Of a stretch of DNA of 47,547 bases, positions 2,652-47,420 are shown in pieces. A program made the translations under genes and the position numbers. The notes below the pieces were generated by a model. The model saw nothing but the letters and a program-made list of their open reading frames with translations, had not been told where the DNA came from and ran no database searches. Origin of the DNA: a virus; IMG/VR virus record IMGVR_UViG_3300044961_000308, positions 1 through 47,547 of that record, one strand, 5' to 3'. The first letter of the stretch is position 1. Each line of letters begins with the position of its first letter.

Positions 2652-3569
2652 ATGAAGCAGACCCCCGTTCGTATCCGCGTCGCTGTGGCCACCGCCAGCC
2701 TCGTCCATCCCGACATGACGCTGGACGGGCTGGCGGAGCGCACGGAGGCTGCGCTGCGGGCGGCGTACCCGCACGCCACCATTGAGGTGAGCAAGGCTAC
2801 TGTCTCGAATGGCGCCGAGCTCAGGGTCTACGAGGACGGCGGCGAGTACGGGCCCATCGAGATCACCGATGAACTGGCGGCCATGGATGTGCGCCACGTG
2901 GTGGGGCGGGCATGGGAGGCGTATGCCGCCGAGGTCAGCAGGGCTGAGGCGGCGGCACTGCTGGGGCCCGCTCCCGCGGATGACGTGGTGGCGGCGGAGG
3001 CAGCAGAGCTGCAGGCCGGGGTGGCGCGCCTGCTCGCGCTGCCGGCCGGACACCCAGACCGTGCCGAAGCGCGTGCGCTCTTCGCGGCGCAGGCCGGTCT
3101 CGGCGTAGGTGCGTCGCCGCCCAGCGCCCCGGGGCCCGGGCCCAAGACGCCGCAGCCCACCACGTCGGTCTGGCGCATGAGTCTGCAACACACGGTTCCG
3201 GTCGTGCGCGTGATGAAGCAGCGGGCCGAGGTCGAGGTGCGCACAGACGTGTTCGTGCGCGCCGCGGGCTCTGCACAGGCGGTGCGGGCGGCGCTGGCGC
3301 AGTGGGAGACCAGTTCGATGGCGGAGCAGCTGGCCGCGGCCGCTGTTGAGTGGCGGGATGTGGAGGAGCGCGCCGGGCCGGTCGCTGTGGACTCCGGTTG
3401 CATGCACATCACATCGGTCGTGCAGATCGATGCCCGTGAAGCGGCCATGATCGCCCGCCGCACGGGCGCGCCGATGCTGGATGCCACCGGTGCGGGCGAG
3501 CCTCGGCTGGTGGACGGCTGGGGGGAGCTGGGCGCCGCAGCGGAGCAGGAGCCCGACGCCCGCGGCTGA
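2652..3569 (+). CDS. Hypothetical early protein, 305 residues
   Basis: The start ATG is preceded by GCGGAGACCTGACC; an upstream extension to 2403 overlaps the HTH gene and is rejected. Two possible folded halves are joined by a Pro/Gly-rich linker (PPSAPGPGPKTPQPTT, about residues 158-173). The C-terminal half has beta-like stretches (HTVPVVRVMKQRAEVEVRTD). No known domain. The gene ends just before hairpin-promoter P4. Confidence 0.65.
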   Translation: MKQTPVRIRVAVATASLVHPDMTLDGLAERTEAALRAAYPHATIEVSKATVSNGAELRVYEDGGEYGPIEITDELAAMDVRHVVGRAWEAYAAEVSRAEAAALLGPAPADDVVAAEAAELQAGVARLLALPAGHPDRAEARALFAAQAGLGVGASPPSAPGPGPKTPQPTTSVWRMSLQHTVPVVRVMKQRAEVEVRTDVFVRAAGSAQAVRAALAQWETSSMAEQLAAAAVEWRDVEERAGPVAVDSGCMHITSVVQIDAREAAMIARRTGAPMLDATGAGEPRLVDGWGELGAAAEQEPDARG

Positions 3570-3585
3570 CGGGCCAGCCCGGCAC

Positions 3586-3626
3586 CCGGCCCCCGGTCCG
3601 CCGATGTTGCGCGGGCCGGGGGCCGG
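3586..3626 (+). terminator. Hairpin overlapping promoter P4
   Basis: CCGGCCCCCGGTCCG (3586-3600) pairs with CGGGCCGGGGGCCGG (3612-3626) with one G-T wobble. The loop again contains CCGATGTTG. The stem sequence differs from the hairpins at 1406 and 1812 while pairing is kept, which supports selection for the structure. Confidence 0.65.
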
Positions 3627-3636
3627 TCGTTTGCAG
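3607..3636 (+). promoter_or_regulatory. Promoter P4 with 5' stem-loop
   Basis: TTGCGC 3607-3612, 18 bases, then TTGCAG 3631-3636, a poorer -10 box than P1-P3. A perfect stem-loop follows: GGTGCCGCA 3643-3651 with TGCGGCACC 3655-3663. The next gene has CGGAG before the ATG at 3691. Confidence 0.5.
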
Positions 3637-3690
3637 GGCAGTGGTGCCGCACCCTGCGGCACCCCGTGACCAACTGACCCGGAGCGCACC

Positions 3691-4008
3691 ATGATGCACG
3701 CATGCACCACCACCACCACCACCGCCGCCCGCCCTGCCGCCTTGTACGATACCGCGGCCGGCCGGCGGCTGGCCATGGCCCAGCTGCACGACGCGGAGCA
3801 GGCCGTGGCCCGGCTTGAGGCCATTGTCGTGCCCGCCATGCAGTGGGCGCAGGAGCTGGACGCGCAGGGGGCCCACGCGGAGGCCGGCATGCTGCGGTGG
3901 GAGGTAATGCCGGAGCGGCAGCGGCTGACGGTGCAGCGCCTGCTGGTGGCGGAGCTGGAGCAGGAGCTGGCCCGCACCGCCTTGCGCCCCGGCGTCACTC
4001 TGCGGTAG
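3691..4008 (+). CDS. Coiled-coil-like hypothetical protein
   Basis: Encodes 105 residues; CGGAGCGCACC precedes the ATG, with a second ATG directly after it. Residues 3-14 are His/Thr low complexity. Residues 25-95 are almost entirely helical with heptad-like Leu/Ala/Glu spacing (LAMAQLHDAEQAVARLEAIV, RLLVAELEQELA). Probably a small oligomer; function unknown. Confidence 0.65.
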   Translation: MMHACTTTTTTAARPAALYDTAAGRRLAMAQLHDAEQAVARLEAIVVPAMQWAQELDAQGAHAEAGMLRWEVMPERQRLTVQRLLVAELEQELARTALRPGVTLR

Positions 4009-4011
4009 GTT
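3982..4011 (+). promoter_or_regulatory. Promoter for the DUF932 gene
   Basis: TTGCGC 3982-3987, 18 bases, TAGGTT 4006-4011, inside the last codons of the preceding gene. The leader carries GGTGCTGCA 4019-4027 and TGCAGCGCC 4030-4038, again the conserved 5' palindrome, and a CACACTGGAG ribosome binding site before 4110. Confidence 0.55.
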
Positions 4012-4109
4012 GTGGCACGGTGCTGCACGTGCAGCGCCGCATACGCGGGCCAGCCCCCGGTGACACTTCCGCCACCCGGCGCGCCGCCCGCCACACTGGA
4101 GAACACACG

Positions 4110-5276
4110 ATGACCACGCTCATTACGCCCACGTCCGCCCCGCGCCCCACGTCCGCCCCGCGCCCCACGTCCAGCGGCGCCCCGCTCACCGCCGCATACC
4201 ACCAGTGGGCCACCCGGCCGGCCGACCAGCGGTTCGGCAGTCTGGAGGAGCTGCACGCGGCTGTCACGCACCACCGCGACGTGGCGGTGGAGGCCACGGA
4301 CGTGAACCTGCGCACGCTGCACGTGCACGCGGAGGACGCCCCGGACGGTGGCGCGGCGTACCCGGTGCTGGTGAGCATGGCCACGGGGATGCGTGCCACG
4401 TTCACGCACAACGGCCTGAGCCAGCTGGCCCGCCGGGTGGGCGCGCCGGCCGGCTACCTGACCAAGCTGCCGGCGGCGCTGGTGGCCGCGAACCTCAACC
4501 ACGGGCTGGCCACCGCGCATGAGCAGGCGTATGGCGACAACCTGCTGTTTGCGCAGAATGGCAGCCTGCGCCTGCGCTCCGCGGTGTCCGGGAACTACAC
4601 CCGCATCTGGAATGCGGACGTGACCAGCCGCCTGCTGCGCCTGACGCAGGAGCAACCGGAGTGGCAGCCGGCGCCGGCCGCCTTCGACGGCAGCCGCGGG
4701 TTGTACGCCAGCGACAGCGACCTGTTCGCGTTTCTGGTGGACAACGACCGGCGCATCTTCGAGTCCGGCCCGGCCGGCGGGCTGGGCCGCGGGTTCTTCG
4801 TGAGCAACTCCGAGACCGGGAACGCCAGTTTCGTGCTCACGACGTTCTTTTACGAGTACGTCTGCGGCAACCACCGCGTGTGGGGTGCGCAGGGCGTGCA
4901 GGAGCTGCGCATCCGCCACGTGGGCAAGGCGGACGAGCGCGTGTGGGACCAGCTGCAGGTGGAGCTGCGCAAGTACGCGGACAGCAGCGCCGCGGCGGAC
5001 GAGGCCAAGGTGCAGGCCATGCGCACCACGGTGCTGGGCAAGGACAAGGCGACGGTGCTTGACCGGGTGCTGGGCCTGCGGCTGCGGGACGTGGGCGTGC
5101 GGGTGCTGGAGCGCGCCTACGATGTGGCCGAGCAACACGAGCACTGGTACGGCGCGCCCACCACGGTGTGGGGGCTGACCGGCGGCATGACACAGGTGGC
5201 GCGAGACCTGCCGCACGCCAGCGACCGGGTGGCGCTGGAGCGGGCCGCGGGCCGCGTGATGCAGATCGCGTTCTAG
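4110..5276 (+). CDS. DUF932 (phage/plasmid-like) protein
   Basis: Encodes 388 residues. After a Thr/Ser/Pro/Arg-rich N-terminus with a duplicated PTSAPR unit, it matches the DUF932 family: the central LSQLARRVGAPAGYLTKLP segment, then NGSLRLRSAVSGNYTRIWN and the aromatic block TTFFYEYVCGNHRVWGA. Family members are common in phages and plasmids and are thought to act in early DNA metabolism, but no activity is established. The start ATG follows CACACTGGAGAACACACG. It is the only recognisable gene of the left early region and has its own promoter and a strong terminator, suggesting high, separate expression. Confidence 0.85.
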   Translation: MTTLITPTSAPRPTSAPRPTSSGAPLTAAYHQWATRPADQRFGSLEELHAAVTHHRDVAVEATDVNLRTLHVHAEDAPDGGAAYPVLVSMATGMRATFTHNGLSQLARRVGAPAGYLTKLPAALVAANLNHGLATAHEQAYGDNLLFAQNGSLRLRSAVSGNYTRIWNADVTSRLLRLTQEQPEWQPAPAAFDGSRGLYASDSDLFAFLVDNDRRIFESGPAGGLGRGFFVSNSETGNASFVLTTFFYEYVCGNHRVWGAQGVQELRIRHVGKADERVWDQLQVELRKYADSSAAADEAKVQAMRTTVLGKDKATVLDRVLGLRLRDVGVRVLERAYDVAEQHEHWYGAPTTVWGLTGGMTQVARDLPHASDRVALERAAGRVMQIAF

Positions 5277-5348: not shown

Positions 5349-5873
5349 ATGGAGAACCGCAGGATGACACGGGACGAGTGGGAGCTGGAGCGCACGTTGG
5401 CAACGCCGCTGGGCCAGCTGCTGCATGAGCAGTACACCACGCTGCGGCGCCGCCTGCAGGCGCTGGAGCGGCTGGCGGTGGACGGGGCGGAGGCGCGGGT
5501 GATGCTGGCCACGGTGGCCGTGCGCGCGGCCACGACGCTGCGGGGCCCGGTGGAGGAGACGGGGGGCCCGGTGGAGGAGACGGGGGGCCCGGTGCCGGCG
5601 GGGGCGGCCCACACGCTGTTCGGGCGCGTGCAGCTGGACGAGCCGCGGGGCGCCGGCGGGACGTGGCGGGCGCAAGCGGTGCGCAGCGATGGGGGCCTGC
5701 TGGGGGGCGTGGTGGGCTGGGGCGGGACGCCCCGGGAGGCGGTGCTGGCGCTGGTGGATGAGGTGCTGAAGGTGGCGATGGGTGCGGCCCCCGCCGGCAG
5801 CGACCACGTGGCGGCATGCCAAAGCTGGGCACGCGACACCCTGCGCCAGCGGCTGCTGGTGCCGGCGATCTGA
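5349..5873 (+). CDS. Hypothetical protein with an internal repeat
   Basis: Encodes 174 residues; GGCGGAGGAGCGGACC precedes the ATG. The N-terminal 55 residues are helical and charged. At residues 65-80 the seven-residue unit GPVEETG is tandemly repeated (21-bp DNA repeat at about 5547-5592), probably a flexible linker. The C-terminal half (WRAQAVRSDGGLLGGVVGWG, then AVLALVDEVLKVA) looks like a small alpha/beta domain. No known family. Confidence 0.65.
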   Translation: MENRRMTRDEWELERTLATPLGQLLHEQYTTLRRRLQALERLAVDGAEARVMLATVAVRAATTLRGPVEETGGPVEETGGPVPAGAAHTLFGRVQLDEPRGAGGTWRAQAVRSDGGLLGGVVGWGGTPREAVLALVDEVLKVAMGAAPAGSDHVAACQSWARDTLRQRLLVPAI

Positions 5874-5894
5874 CCACACCGCATGGGGGACCAC

Positions 5895-6218
5895 ATGCTG
5901 GAGCTGATGGAAGGACTGGCGGATGGCGAGGAGCGGATGGTCGTGCAGGTGGGGCTGGTGCAGCACGGTGCAGGCGCACAGCGGGTCTATCGGGCGGCCA
6001 TCATGGCGTGGCACCGCAAGCGGTGGCCGGGGCCGGCCGCGCTGGCGCGTGTGGCGTGGATGTGGCCCCGGGCGCTGGTGGTGGTGGACGCCCGGCCGTG
6101 GCGCGAGGACTACGACGCGGCGGTGCAGGATCAGCTGGCGTGGCGCGAGGAGCTGCAGGAGCGGCAGCAGGCGCCGCGGCTGGCCCCGGTGCGCAGCCGG
6201 CGGGCGGCCACGTGCTGA
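5895..6218 (+). CDS. Hypothetical protein
   Basis: Encodes 107 residues from the ATG at 5895, which has GGGGGA four bases upstream; an in-frame ATG at 5883 lacks a binding site but would add four residues. It is rich in Trp and Arg in the middle (WHRKRWPGPAALARVAWMWP), then VVVDARPWREDYD. No known domain. TGA overlaps the GTG start of the next gene. Confidence 0.6.
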   Translation: MLELMEGLADGEERMVVQVGLVQHGAGAQRVYRAAIMAWHRKRWPGPAALARVAWMWPRALVVVDARPWREDYDAAVQDQLAWREELQERQQAPRLAPVRSRRAATC

Positions 6219-41684: not shown

Positions 41685-42227
41685 ATGGGCTGGGCATGGA
41701 TGCTGGACACGCGGGTCGTCGCGCTGGCGGCGCTGTTGCTGGCGTGTGGCGCCGGCGTGGGTGCCGTGCGGTACCACCAGCGGGCGGTCGGGCAGGCGTA
41801 CCGCGCCGGGCAGGTGCAGGCCCGGGACAGCGTGCAGCGGGAGGCTGCGGTGCAGGTGCAGCTGTTGACGGAGCGGCTGCGGGTGGCCACCGGGCGCACG
41901 GACACGGTGGTGCAGCGCGTGACCCGCACGGTGGCCCGCGTGGACACGCTCTTGCAGGCGGTCCATGACACCTTGTGGGTGCAGCTGCCGGCGCCGGCGC
42001 AGGAGGCACTGGCAGCGTGCCGGGCACTGGTGCAGGACTGTGGGCAGGTGCGGGCGGCGCTGGTGGCGGAGCGGGCGGCGGCGGACAGCGTGCGGCAGGC
42101 CACGCAGCTGCAGCGCACCGCGGACAAGGACAGCATCCGCACGCTGGCCAAGCGGCCCAGCCGGCTGCGGCACTACACGACCGTGGCCGCCGTGGGGCTG
42201 CTGGGGGTGTGGGCCGGTGGCAGGTAG
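41685..42227 (+). CDS. Membrane-anchored coiled-coil protein, spanin-like
   Basis: Encodes 180 residues; CGGGGGCATC is upstream. One N-terminal membrane segment (about 8-28, ALAALLLACGAGVGAV), then a long periplasm-type coiled coil (about 35-155), then a short weakly hydrophobic C-terminus. This is the form of an inner-membrane spanin (Rz), though no Rz1 partner is seen and the gene lies apart from holin and endolysin. If a spanin, the host has an outer membrane. Confidence 0.5.
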   Translation: MGWAWMLDTRVVALAALLLACGAGVGAVRYHQRAVGQAYRAGQVQARDSVQREAAVQVQLLTERLRVATGRTDTVVQRVTRTVARVDTLLQAVHDTLWVQLPAPAQEALAACRALVQDCGQVRAALVAERAAADSVRQATQLQRTADKDSIRTLAKRPSRLRHYTTVAAVGLLGVWAGGR

Positions 42228-42702: not shown

Positions 42703-43539
42703 ATGCGCCCGCGGATTGCCGGACGCAACATCGGCCTGCAGGCCGCCATCCCGAACAGCACGTTCGGGGTCGTCACGCTCAGCTACCCCGGCAGCGCCAA
42801 CACGTGGGGGGCGTGGTCCACCGCCATTGCCGCCATGCCCTATGCGGCGCGGGGCCTGTACCTCAACATCGTCAGCAACAGCAACGGCGCGAACCTGAAC
42901 GTGGGCGTGCAGCTGGAGGTGGGGCTGGGCACGGCGGGCAACGAGGTGGGCCTGATCCGCGCCTTCGTCAACAACCACGGGTTGAACCAGCGGTGCAACC
43001 AAGACCTGTGGGTGCCGCTGGCCGTGCCGGCCGGCGTGCGCGTGGCCGTGCGCATGATGGCCAGCGGCAGCAGCAGTCAGCACGCCGTGAGCGTGGTGCC
43101 GTTTCCCTGCGTGCCGGGCGCGCCGCCCGGCTTCCGGGGGGTGGAGATCGTGGGGCTGTCCGCGTCGCAGGCCCTGCCCACTATCGTTGCCGCCGGCACC
43201 CGCACCGGCAGCGCCCCCGAGTTCATCGGCGCTGTGGTGCAGATGACGGCGGCCACCGCGCAGCGGTGGCGCGCCGTCACCGTCTGCTTCGGCGGCAACG
43301 GCGTGCTGACGGCCAGCGTGGCGGTGGCCACGGTGCGGCTGCTGGTCGGTCCCGCGGCGTCCGAGCAGGTGGTGGTGAGCCCGGTGTGGAGCGTGGCGGT
43401 GGACCGCGGCCAGCAGCTGCCGCAGGCCGCGGGCTGGGAGGTGCTGCCGTGCGACATCCCCAAGGGCAGCCGGGTGGCCATGGAGATCGTCGGCAGCGCC
43501 TCGGAAGATCATCGACCGTACCTTTTCGGCTGGTACTGA
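42703..43539 (+). CDS. Receptor-binding-like protein A
   Basis: Encodes 278 residues, Gly/Ala/Val-rich and beta-like. It is a paralogue of the next gene: both have MTAATxQRWRA, an LVGPAxS/LVAGPGS segment, CDIPxGxR and a terminal GWY. Tandem variants of such proteins at the tail-gene end are usually host-recognition proteins. Confidence 0.6.
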   Translation: MRPRIAGRNIGLQAAIPNSTFGVVTLSYPGSANTWGAWSTAIAAMPYAARGLYLNIVSNSNGANLNVGVQLEVGLGTAGNEVGLIRAFVNNHGLNQRCNQDLWVPLAVPAGVRVAVRMMASGSSSQHAVSVVPFPCVPGAPPGFRGVEIVGLSASQALPTIVAAGTRTGSAPEFIGAVVQMTAATAQRWRAVTVCFGGNGVLTASVAVATVRLLVGPAASEQVVVSPVWSVAVDRGQQLPQAAGWEVLPCDIPKGSRVAMEIVGSASEDHRPYLFGWY

Positions 43540-43543
43540 CCCC

Positions 43544-44392
43544 ATGCGCGTACTACCCCAAGGGCCCGCTACCCTGCGCCGCGCCCCGTTCCGAGAGGAC
43601 GCAAACCAGATTGCAAGGCATGTCTCTATCAACGCGTCAACGTCTCGGGATACGTGGACAGCCTACGCCACGGTGCTGAATCCGGTAAGGTTCGCCGCCC
43701 CCGGGTTCACCGCCTTCCTCCGCGTGATCGGCATGCCCAACAACCCCACGGCGCCCGACTACTGCAACGCACTGGTGGAGCTGGCGGTGGGGGCTGCGAG
43801 CAGCGAGCGCCCGCTGGTGCGCCTGCACTTCCCCACGTCCGTCACAACCATGGACCGGGCGTATTATGTGCCGCTGCACCTGCCCAAGGGGGCCCGGCTG
43901 GCGGCGCGGCTGTCCCGCGGCATTGCCTCCGGCACCGGCGGCGCGCTGCAGGTAGGGGTGCTGCCGAGCCCAGTGTCCCCATACGCTGCCGGCGGGTTCC
44001 GGGGCGTGGAGCACGTGAACGTCAGCGCCGGCCCCTCCGCGGCGCCGCCCACGGAGCTGACGATCGCGAGCGGTGCGGGCGGCTTGCATGAGATGACGGC
44101 GGCCACCACGCAGCGGTGGCGCGCCTTTTCGTTCCACATCGGCACCACGCTCAACCCTCAAGTCACTGAGCGCCTTCTTCAGGGCGTCCGCTGGGCGCTG
44201 GTGGCGGGCCCCGGGTCCGGCACCATCGTGGCCGGGTATTTCATGTCTGGGCAGGCCGGCAGCCGCGGGTGCTTCCAGCCCATGGGCCCGTTCCCGTGCG
44301 ACATTCCAGCCGGCACGCGGCTACAATTGCACCTCACCACGTCCGACGGCGCCCGGACCCAGTGCGCGCCACAACTGTGGGGGTGGTACTGA
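43544..44392 (+). CDS. Receptor-binding-like protein B (paralogue of the preceding gene)
   Basis: Encodes 282 residues. It shares the C-terminal architecture of its neighbour (MTAATTQRWRAF, CDIPAGTRLQL, LWGWY) but its first 50 codons (about 43560-43680) use more A/T-ending codons than any nearby gene, a sign of recent exchange. The TGATG overlap leads to the next gene. Confidence 0.6.
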   Translation: MRVLPQGPATLRRAPFREDANQIARHVSINASTSRDTWTAYATVLNPVRFAAPGFTAFLRVIGMPNNPTAPDYCNALVELAVGAASSERPLVRLHFPTSVTTMDRAYYVPLHLPKGARLAARLSRGIASGTGGALQVGVLPSPVSPYAAGGFRGVEHVNVSAGPSAAPPTELTIASGAGGLHEMTAATTQRWRAFSFHIGTTLNPQVTERLLQGVRWALVAGPGSGTIVAGYFMSGQAGSRGCFQPMGPFPCDIPAGTRLQLHLTTSDGARTQCAPQLWGWY

Positions 44393-44753: not shown

Positions 44754-45434
44754 ATGTGGTCCTACGCCCAGCAGCTGGCCGAGCTACCTCCGGTTCTCGC
44801 CTCCAGCGGCGCCCCGCCGGCGGAGACCATCGAGCTGGAGGCAGGTGCCGTGCCGGTGGCTGGCACGGCGCTGGGGCTGCCGGCCACGCGCACGCTGGCG
44901 CTGGCCCCGGGCCCGGTGCCGCTGGCTGGCACCACGCTGGGCGTGGCCCGTGGCAGCACGCTGGCGCTGGCCCCGGGTGCCGTGCCCACAGCTGGGCCGG
45001 CACTGGCGCTGCAGGTGTCAGCGTCGCTGGTACTGGCCCCGGGCCCGGTGCCCACGGCCGGCACGGCGCTGGGGCTGGCCAAGCTGGTGCAGCTCACGCT
45101 GGCCCCGGGTGCGGTGCCGGTGGCCGGCCCGGCGCTGGGGGCGCCTGCTACCCTCACCGCTGTTCTACAGGCCGCTGGCGTGCCGCTGGCGGCCCCGGTG
45201 CTGGCCGTCCGCGGCGTGGGCGTGGTGGCGCTGGCCCCGGGCCCGGTGCCGCTGGCCGGCACGGCCGTGCTGGTGCGGCGCGGCGCCATCACGGTCGTGC
45301 TGGCCAGTGTGCAGGACGTGTCGCCCGTGGTATCGTTGCAGGACGTGGCGCCGCGGCTGGCACTGCAGGACGTGGCGCCCGTGGCGCGGCTGCAGGACGT
45401 GGCCCCGACCGTGACACTCAAGAGCCTCACATGA
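44754..45434 (+). CDS. Repeat protein: seven 22-residue and four 9-residue units
   Basis: Encodes 226 residues. From residue 25 to 178 it is seven exact-length 22-residue units with LAPGPVPxAGTALGL as core; residues 187-222 are four 9-residue units of QDVAPxxxL. The strict periods suggest a beta-solenoid or fibrous rod ending in a short repeat. No enzymatic residues. Likely a fibre shaft or surface protein near the receptor-binding genes. Confidence 0.65.
   Translation: MWSYAQQLAELPPVLASSGAPPAETIELEAGAVPVAGTALGLPATRTLALAPGPVPLAGTTLGVARGSTLALAPGAVPTAGPALALQVSASLVLAPGPVPTAGTALGLAKLVQLTLAPGAVPVAGPALGAPATLTAVLQAAGVPLAAPVLAVRGVGVVALAPGPVPLAGTAVLVRRGAITVVLASVQDVSPVVSLQDVAPRLALQDVAPVARLQDVAPTVTLKSLT
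44826..45287 (+). repeat. 66-bp tandem repeats, seven units
   Basis: In-frame units coding for 22 residues each, conserved around CTGGCCCCGGG(C/T)-CCGGTGCC and GCTGGCACGGCGCTGGGG blocks. The exact unit length indicates growth by unequal recombination. Confidence 0.75.
45312..45419 (+). repeat. 27-bp tandem repeats, four units
   Basis: Units with CAGGACGTGGCGCC at their core encode QDVxPxxxL four times at the C-terminus of the repeat protein. Confidence 0.75.
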
Positions 45435-45790
45435 CCACGAACCTGTACCCCAAGAACGACCTCGCCTTCGTCGCCTCCGTCCGCCGCGCCAACAGCGCCG
45501 GCCGGCTAGTGCCGCTGGAGGCGGCGGTGAACCCGACCGCGTTTCTCGCCACAACGGACAGCAGCACGGCGGTGGCCGCTGACCCCGCCTTCGTCACCAC
45601 CCCCACGCCCACCGGCCGCGCCGGCGCGTGGCTGGTCCAGTTCGACGCAGACGTGCTGCAGCCGGCGGCGCTGGCAGCAGCCGGCTTCACCAGCTCCGCG
45701 CCGCTCTATTGCATCGTGCAGTTCGATGAAGGCGTGCGCGTGGCCGTGGAGCTGGCGCTGGTGGACAGCAAGCTGGTGGTCGCAACGTGA
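45431..45790 (+). CDS. Hypothetical tail-region protein
   Basis: Encodes 119 residues; ATGA overlap with the repeat protein. A mostly beta-like protein (AGAWLVQFDADVLQPAAL, LYCIVQFDEGVRVAVELALV). Unknown; overlaps the PAS gene start by GTGA. Confidence 0.55.
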   Translation: MTTNLYPKNDLAFVASVRRANSAGRLVPLEAAVNPTAFLATTDSSTAVAADPAFVTTPTPTGRAGAWLVQFDADVLQPAALAAAGFTSSAPLYCIVQFDEGVRVAVELALVDSKLVVAT

Positions 45791-46458
45791 GCGTCGAAGA
45801 AGCGGCCAAGGTGGTCGGCCTGCTCGTCGGGCTGGTGGGGCTGGGCACGGCGGCGGTGCGCGTGACGCGCTACGTGCGCGGCCGCCGGCAAGCGCGGCAG
45901 GCGGCCACGGAGGCGGCGCAGCAGCAGCTCCGAGAGCTGGCGAAGACGGTGACGGAGCAGCTGCTGCCCGCCGTGGCCAGCATTCAGGCCCAGCTGCAGG
46001 CCAACGGGGGCGGCAGCCTGCGCGACCTGCTGCGCGACCTGCGCGACGAGCACGCGCTGGAGCGGGCGGCGCGCCGGGCGATGACCAATGTGGCCAGTTT
46101 CGAGGTGAAGGTGGTGGACGGGGAATCGAGCGTTCTACACGTCAGCCCGGCGTGGGTGCACTACACGGGCCTGACGCGGGAGGACTGTGAGGACGATGGG
46201 TGGGCCCGGGCGGTGCACGAGGAGGACCGGGACCGGGTCATGCGCATGGCGCGGCGGGCCATGGAGGACGGCAAGGTGTTCGTGACCACCTACCGGCTGC
46301 GCAACGTCCACACCAACGCGGTGCAGCGGGTGGAGCATACCGGCACGCCGGTCTACAACATGCTGGGCGACTGCGTGGGGTGGGTGGCCGTGGTCCGCCC
46401 GCGGGATGACGACCCGGCGTCGTTCCGGCCCACGGCGACGCTGGCGGCGGAGCAGTAG
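45787..46458 (+). CDS. Membrane-anchored PAS-domain protein
   Basis: GTG start in a GTGA overlap; 223 residues. A membrane segment at about 8-28 (VVGLLVGLVGLGTAAVRV), a coiled coil at about 33-72, and a PAS domain at about 100-206: HVSPAWVHYTGLTRED, DGWARAVHEEDRDRV, then a TTYRLRNVHTNAVQRVEHTG beta-sheet pattern and GDCVGWVAVVRP. PAS domains sense small ligands, light or redox, or mediate protein contacts. No kinase or cyclase domain follows. Lying just upstream of holin and endolysin, it may sense the cell state and affect lysis timing, which is inference. Confidence 0.7.
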   Translation: MSVEEAAKVVGLLVGLVGLGTAAVRVTRYVRGRRQARQAATEAAQQQLRELAKTVTEQLLPAVASIQAQLQANGGGSLRDLLRDLRDEHALERAARRAMTNVASFEVKVVDGESSVLHVSPAWVHYTGLTREDCEDDGWARAVHEEDRDRVMRMARRAMEDGKVFVTTYRLRNVHTNAVQRVEHTGTPVYNMLGDCVGWVAVVRPRDDDPASFRPTATLAAEQ

Positions 46459-46473
46459 CGCACGGAGGCAGGC

Positions 46474-46851
46474 ATGGCGGAGGAGCTGGTGGCCGGACGG
46501 CCGGCCCGGCGGAGCTGGTGGGGCCGGCTGGTGGAGGCGGTGGGCTGGGGCAACGGGAAGGGCGAGCTGAGCTTCAACAAGCAGGTCACCTTCACGGCGC
46601 TCTTTCTCTTCGGCTACTGCATCGTGACGCGGCGGGAGCCCAGCTGGGCCCTGCTGTCGTTCGGCGTGGTGGTGATCGGGGCCGGGTTCGGCCTGAAGGG
46701 GTACTTGGGCGCGATCAAGCAGAACACCACCGCGGCGCAGCTGCAGGCGCGCAGCAATGTGGACGTGGCGCTGAAAGGCGACATGGCCGAGCTGGTGGCT
46801 GCCGTGCGCGGCCGGCGGGACGCGGGTACTGGCACGGAGCCCGCGCCGTGA
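46474..46851 (+). CDS. Holin-like protein
   Basis: Encodes 125 residues; CACGGAGGCAGGC precedes the ATG. A charged N-terminus, two membrane segments (about 38-52 and 58-80), and a charged C-terminal helix. This layout and the GTGA overlap with the endolysin gene fit a two-segment (class II) holin that opens the inner membrane. It could also be an anti-holin. Confidence 0.65.
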   Translation: MAEELVAGRPARRSWWGRLVEAVGWGNGKGELSFNKQVTFTALFLFGYCIVTRREPSWALLSFGVVVIGAGFGLKGYLGAIKQNTTAAQLQARSNVDVALKGDMAELVAAVRGRRDAGTGTEPAP

Positions 46852-47420
46852 CGGGTCCCGCGCCGCTGGTGTCGCTCACCCCGGTGGAGCTGCTGCTGCG
46901 GGTGAGCGCCGCCACGGTGGGCGCCGGGGAGTACCCGCCCAGCAGCAACGCGGGCCCCTACGTGGAGCGAGTGCAGCGGCGAACGGGAAACAGGCCGCCC
47001 GACCCGTGGTGCGCCAGCTGGGTCAGCGACGTAGGGCACCACGCGCTGGGCTCGCTGTGGCCGGTGCGCAACACCGCCTCGGTGGTCCAGATGTGCGACT
47101 GGGCCAAGGCCCGCGGCTGCCGCTACATCCCGGGCGCCACCGGCCGGGGCGCGCCACAGCTGGGCGACATCTACGCGCTGTGGTACCCCAAGCTGGGCCG
47201 CTGGGCGCACGTCGGCATCGTGGTGGGCGTCACCCCCGGCACCCTGCGCATCGTGGCGCGGGACGGCAACACCAGCGGGCCGGGCATGGCCGGCCCGGCG
47301 CTGGACCGGGAGGGGTGGCTGGTGGCGGAGAAGCCGCGCACGCTGACCCGGGAAGACCGCCTGATCCGGTGGGTGGAGGCCCTGCCGGCAGGGCCCGCCC
47401 AGCCCGATGTTGCGTTGTGA
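46848..47420 (+). CDS. Endolysin (CHAP/NlpC-type amidase or peptidase)
   Basis: GTG start, 190 residues. Cys55 in PDPWCASWVSD, His121 in WAHVGIVVG and Asp139/Asn141 form a CHAP or NlpC/P60 catalytic set. It cuts peptidoglycan after the holin has opened the membrane. No signal peptide and no separate wall-binding domain. Its last 41 codons are repeated at 1-123 through the circular overlap. Confidence 0.8.
   Translation: MTGPAPLVSLTPVELLLRVSAATVGAGEYPPSSNAGPYVERVQRRTGNRPPDPWCASWVSDVGHHALGSLWPVRNTASVVQMCDWAKARGCRYIPGATGRGAPQLGDIYALWYPKLGRWAHVGIVVGVTPGTLRIVARDGNTSGPGMAGPALDREGWLVAEKPRTLTREDRLIRWVEALPAGPAQPDVAL

Follow-up and report, generated by a model that had tools for sequence, protein, structure and literature searches.

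A phage membrane protein with a predicted cytoplasmic PAS domain, encoded among lysis genes and a candidate input to lysis timing

The 47,547-nucleotide stretch of viral DNA considered here (the window; IMG/VR record IMGVR_UViG_3300044961_000308) encodes a small membrane protein with a PAS domain, its gene being placed between tail-type genes and a two-transmembrane (2-TM) holin-like gene followed by a CHAP endolysin. Our preferred explanation, to which we give a probability of roughly 0.5, is that the protein belongs to the lysis cassette, has one TM segment and, as an extension, a PAS domain in the cytoplasm, and tunes the timing of holin and endolysin action. Sequence comparison establishes the parts of the protein, the gene order, the homology to PAS-less one-TM proteins and the recurrent neighbourhood of peptidoglycan hydrolases. 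Seventeen further members were found in virus contigs and prophages, and this family of PAS membrane proteins in phages has apparently been undescribed so far. The recurrence of its members beside many unrelated cell-wall hydrolases suggests that some phages link the moment of host-cell bursting to an intracellular signal. The features of the window are collected in Table 1.

Table 1. Features at the PAS gene and its neighbours in the window
Feature	Position	Strand	Comment
119-aa gene, function not assigned	45431..45790	+	precedes the PAS gene and overlaps it by GTGA; also conserved in L002 and L004
PAS membrane protein gene	45787..46458	+	223 aa, GTG start; homologues in other contigs
Single transmembrane helix, aa 6-24	45802..45858	+	predicted N-out/C-in; KD 1.96
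Basic/helical linker, aa 25-65	45859..45981	+	within continuous helix 3-72 of the AlphaFold model
Hinge motif IQAQLQANGGGSLRD, aa 66-80	45982..46026	+	conserved; helix break in the AF2 model
PAS domain, predicted cytoplasmic, aa 105-205	46099..46401	+	Pfam, AlphaFold, Foldseek; W139 invariant
2-TM holin-like protein, 125 aa	46474..46851	+	conserved in L002, L003 and L004; holin role inferred
CHAP-type endolysin	46848..47420	+	GTGA overlap with the holin-like gene

The first-pass annotation, made from the letters of the window, described a membrane anchor, a coiled coil and a PAS domain in one small protein. The anchor and the PAS domain are borne out by the 223-aa ORF, its TM segment and a Pfam PAS_3 match at residues 117-202 (8.1e-12; 45.7 bits, with a cut-off of 25.6). 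As for the coiled coil, a long helix is indeed predicted, and the coiled coil itself is seen only as that helix. The AlphaFold model (an 11-row alignment; mean pLDDT 82, and ~83-95 across most of the PAS domain) consists of a helix at residues 3-72, a break at 73-77 (NGGGS), a second helix at 78-102 and then the PAS fold at 106-205; solved PAS and LOV domains match the PAS part of the model at ~1e-6 in Foldseek. On comparative grounds 45787-46458 is a real gene, a chance ORF being ruled out because the protein is conserved at 42-46% identity in two other contigs. The fold is common to PAS_3 sensor domains such as those of NifL, LOV proteins and histidine kinases. Unlike these sensors, the window protein carries no kinase, GGDEF or other output domain (Pfam gives no HisKA or HATPase match in its mere 223 residues), and the LOV cysteine motif GXNCRFLQ is absent from the ORF and is not conserved across the family alignment. 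The output of such a protein would be its TM helix and hinge.

Translational coupling of the PAS gene to the gene upstream had also been claimed, and this is well founded: the GTG start shares GTGA with the stop of the 119-aa gene, and overlaps are present also in two related contigs, L002 (1 nt) and L004 (~11 nt). The further claim that the PAS gene lies directly before a holin and an endolysin holds for the endolysin, which is CHAP-type and lies two genes downstream (PHROG endolysin 2.5e-8; Pfam CHAP 2.2e-5, 0.7 bit below the cut-off). The term 'holin' for 46474-46851 derives from position and size, since the 125-aa 2-TM protein has no match in any family library; two helices are predicted in it, and its AlphaFold model is of low confidence (pLDDT 54) and is not taken as proof. 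A search with the family of this protein returned the same three contigs only (L002, L003 and L004). To the eye, the N-terminus of the endolysin has no clear SAR segment of the kind expected in the endolysin partner of a Mu-type releasin. Elsewhere in the window, 42703-43539 and 43544-44392 are apparent paralogues that both end in WGWY and both match the same region of L002, and they are probably tail appendage proteins; 41685-42227, with a TM segment and a long helix, is a possible Rz-like i-spanin, for which PHROG spanin matches reach only 0.1-0.3.

The relatives in L002 (46% identical) and L004 (42%) both occupy the same slot as the window gene, with the 119-aa gene before and the 2-TM gene after it. 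A wider search of virus contigs added members in L007, L012 (with matching copies in L011, L013 and L014), L015, L017, L018, L019 and L021; another is present in a Pyrinomonadaceae MAG (L022), and a search of genomes with the N-terminal module alone led to L045, L046, L047, L048, L057, L058 and L059. The common build is a TM segment, a helix, a motif of the type PNGGxS(L/I/M/F)(R/K/F)D and a PAS domain, the last of these scoring above the Pfam cut-off in most members and below it in L007 and L015. Residues N73, G75, S77 and D80 of the motif, together with W139 of the PAS domain, are the sole invariant positions among 15 aligned members. Conservation reaches 3.6 bits per column in the motif core and 2.2 in the PAS domain, and the hinge is therefore the most constrained part of the protein. 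Among 50,697 isolated-phage records, no PAS relative was found with the window, L002, L004, L007, L012, L047 or L058 proteins as queries, and the L048 protein gave one weak match only (E 0.02), under ribonucleotide reductase; thus no isolated phage in this set holds the PAS form of the module. Entries from uncultured phages in BFVD bear the name 'PAS domain' only. Weak module matches in L041 (a VWA-like protein with PSGGTSLRDAV), L042 and L043 were taken as chance.

The first-pass annotation had placed the protein in a lysis module and had proposed a search for the same gene order in other phages. The order 119-aa gene, PAS gene, 2-TM gene and CHAP endolysin is found again in L002, and it is repeated in L004 but with a different endolysin candidate; L003 has homologues of the 2-TM and CHAP proteins, and the slot ahead of its 2-TM gene holds a TM/helical protein without PAS. 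Other members adjoin other hydrolases. A GH24 endolysin follows the PAS gene directly in prophages L047 and L048, as does a GH108 endolysin in L057, and an SLT-type lysozyme lies two genes past the PAS member of L045. Prophage L058 has PAS, 2-TM and Amidase_2 genes in succession with 4-nt overlaps, the parts being unrelated to those of the window. Rz-like genes adjoin the members in L022 and L059; an M15 endolysin is ~3 kb upstream in L022, and a GH25 lysozyme is 3.8 kb away in L007. Eight genome loci were found by the module alone, no lysis gene having been used as bait, and in five of them a peptidoglycan hydrolase is at most two genes away (binomial 6e-5 on an assumed background of 4/60 per locus, or 0.005 with three related prophages merged into one). 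The lysis-module placement is upheld by these unrelated endolysins beside PAS relatives in several prophages and contigs, and by the homology of the N-terminal module to PAS-less lysis-cassette proteins. No clear endolysin was seen among the neighbours in L015 and L017, and in the T4-like contigs L012, L018 and L021 the PAS member is in replication or nucleotide regions, not near lysis genes. The next gene after the PAS protein (L012:6466-7239, L018:6594-7364 and L021:6477-7259) in these three related contigs is the same member of the Mom family (PF25680, with 1.9e-40 for L012), and a MoxR-like AAA gene comes later.

The PAS-less relatives of the N-terminal module are one-TM proteins found mostly in actinophage lysis cassettes, some of them annotated 'holin', as in Salgado. 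In Sonali and P1312 the gene immediately precedes the endolysin, in TurkishDelight and mu1/6 it comes immediately after endolysin and holin, and in Mufasa8 it precedes a metallo-endopeptidase. Aligned by hhalign, the modules of the PAS family and of the actinophages match over 82 columns with a probability of 98.5 (E 1.9e-15). PHROGs 9869 and 15431 ('holin') connect the two groups; L002 matches phrog_9869 at 9.6e-6 and L007 at 3e-6, the window protein itself having no direct PHROG match below 0.01. Salgado gp72 (Arthrobacter), mu1/6 gp52 (Streptomyces) and P1312_040 (Thermobifida) share with the window protein the TM segment, the linker and PN-x-G-x-S-(L/I)-(R/K)-D. More generally, the actinophage proteins of these two PHROGs have the charge pattern of the PAS family and mostly adjoin an endolysin or holin, but they stop after the module, without PAS, and their hosts differ from those of the PAS members. 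A tree of 22 modules is compatible with a single gain of PAS or with repeated loss or gain. The window gene is classed with the phrog_9869-type module, as a variant that carries PAS, and phrog_9869-type one-TM proteins gain a coherent identity. One of them, P1312_040 (L008:4683-5126), is annotated 'sensory protein kinase CreC'; it has the one-TM NAGGSLRD module, lies directly before an amidase and has no kinase domain that could be found, so that the annotation is likely to be an error.

The TM helix of the window protein has no K/R on its N-terminal side and six on its C-terminal side, and all members scored for TM segments have none or almost none before the helix and two to six after it. 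The PAS domain is predicted to be cytoplasmic because these flanking charges give an N-out/C-in topology. This goes against the likeness to the periplasmic domain of the T4 holin drawn in the first-pass annotation, for the topology given for the T4 holin T is N-in/C-out, with its domain in the periplasm (PMC9671378). The type III holin T does resemble the window protein in being a lysis protein with one TM segment and a globular domain of similar size; its domain is periplasmic, whereas the PAS domain would be in the cytoplasm, so that the window protein is unlikely to detect superinfecting DNA on the periplasmic side. Holin T was rejected as a homologue, Foldseek matches to T-like holins being weak (E 0.01, TM 0.36) and the topology opposite. 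An i-spanin identity was rejected too: Rz is N-in/C-out with a single TM segment and a periplasmic coiled coil, and the charges of the window protein predict the reverse.

One-TM N-out-C-in proteins are contained in the lysis cassettes of Gordonia phages (PMC9671378). LysF1b of the F1 mycobacteriophages is a protein of this topology with one TMD; it is needed for lysis timing, phages from which it is deleted are severely impaired in lysis, the protein shows a response to energy poisons, and its cassette partner is the 2-TMD protein LysF1a, with coupling through a 4-nt overlap (PMC13056207). It is like the window protein in its single N-terminal TMD, N-out-C-in orientation, long helical cytoplasmic part and 2-TMD neighbour, and differs in being 124 aa long and without PAS, as opposed to 223 aa with it. 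By analogy, the window protein may work like the LysF1b class, membership of DUF2746/LysF1b not being established: DUF2746 (PF10874) has no match at E<=1 in the 12 records searched, and hhalign to Che8 gp35 gives a non-significant probability of 9. A common family was accordingly rejected, despite the similar-looking NxHxTNxRDD of Che8 gp35. The latter (L029:4205-4576), a DUF2746-type protein in the LysF1b position, matches phrog_404, which is labelled 'minor tail protein' in PHROGs; in the light of the lysis results of PMC13056207 this label seems wrong.

Given the shared N-out/C-in topology, the best-supported picture is of a membrane protein of lysis that resembles LysF1b but also bears a PAS domain on the cytoplasmic side; the lysis function, partner and signal of the PAS protein are what we infer. 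The family core would be the TM helix, the helical linker and the N-G-G-x-S-(L/I)-(R/K)-D hinge, here extended by PAS. With the adjacent 2-TM protein it may form a two-component holin system, as LysF1b does with LysF1a, and the PAS domain, acting through hinge and helix, could shift the moment at which the membrane protein assembles or triggers. The putative cue is internal, for example the redox or energy state or a metabolite. A stronger version can be put forward only tentatively, namely that these are sensory holin-type proteins whose PAS domain, on binding a cofactor or metabolite in the cytoplasm, gates the one-TM lysis protein directly. If that were true, the internal physiological state of the host would set the time of lysis, in place of a fixed clock or of periplasmic DNA from a superinfecting phage.

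Many PAS domains dimerize, and the PAS domain of a one-TM lysis-cassette protein might do nothing but dimerize or assemble it, with no sensing involved. The hinge being conserved above the PAS domain fits this, as do the PAS-less relatives in the same cassette position and the slot in L003 that is filled without PAS. Yet PAS is kept in very divergent members (15-25% identity) and is present in all confident prophage matches from the module-alone search, which assembly would not require, and we regard an assembly role without sensing as rather doubtful. It is unlikely, again, that the protein is a general membrane-tethered signalling protein of the phage (tuning a host sensor, say, or serving take-over), its late gene lying near lysis genes by convenience. 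The T4-like members, which adjoin Mom and RNR/helicase genes, and the receiver-like next gene in L045 would suit such a role; against it, actinophages have the PAS-less core module as a protein of the lysis cassette in its own right, and the immediate neighbours of the PAS gene are repeatedly endolysins unrelated to one another.

A membrane protein of the tail tip, of injection or of superinfection exclusion, grouped with the tail-type genes upstream, seems very improbable, even though those genes are appendage-like, 45431-45790 is coupled to the PAS gene and the PAS gene of L007 directly follows a giant fibronectin-like tail protein. An N-terminal TM segment with a predicted cytoplasmic PAS domain and homologues coupled directly to endolysins both speak against such a protein.

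The usual picture of lysis timing is of a clock, the holin, that an antiholin brakes, and the best-known regulated case, T4 lysis inhibition, acts via the periplasm. A ligand-type sensor domain that is part of a membrane protein of the lysis cassette, and that turns up alongside no fewer than five unrelated types of endolysin, would give that timing an input from the cytoplasm. The earlier statement that PAS sensing lies outside the well-known lysis systems agrees with the openly accessible literature, in which no paper joins a PAS domain and a phage holin (subscription papers fell outside the search). The motif and the gene order together are a handle for finding such phages, and it becomes directly testable whether phages consult the physiology of the host when they decide to lyse it, a question of long standing. 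In L045, a receiver-like protein (5794-6159; Response_reg 1.6e-4, below the cut-off) is encoded between the PAS protein and the SLT-type lysozyme, and the two may be a phage sensor/receiver pair within a lysis cassette. In L015, a papain-like C1 peptidase (4e-8) and a trypsin-like protease gene, the latter recognized by eye, occupy 3176-4713 side by side, ~1 kb upstream of the PAS gene.
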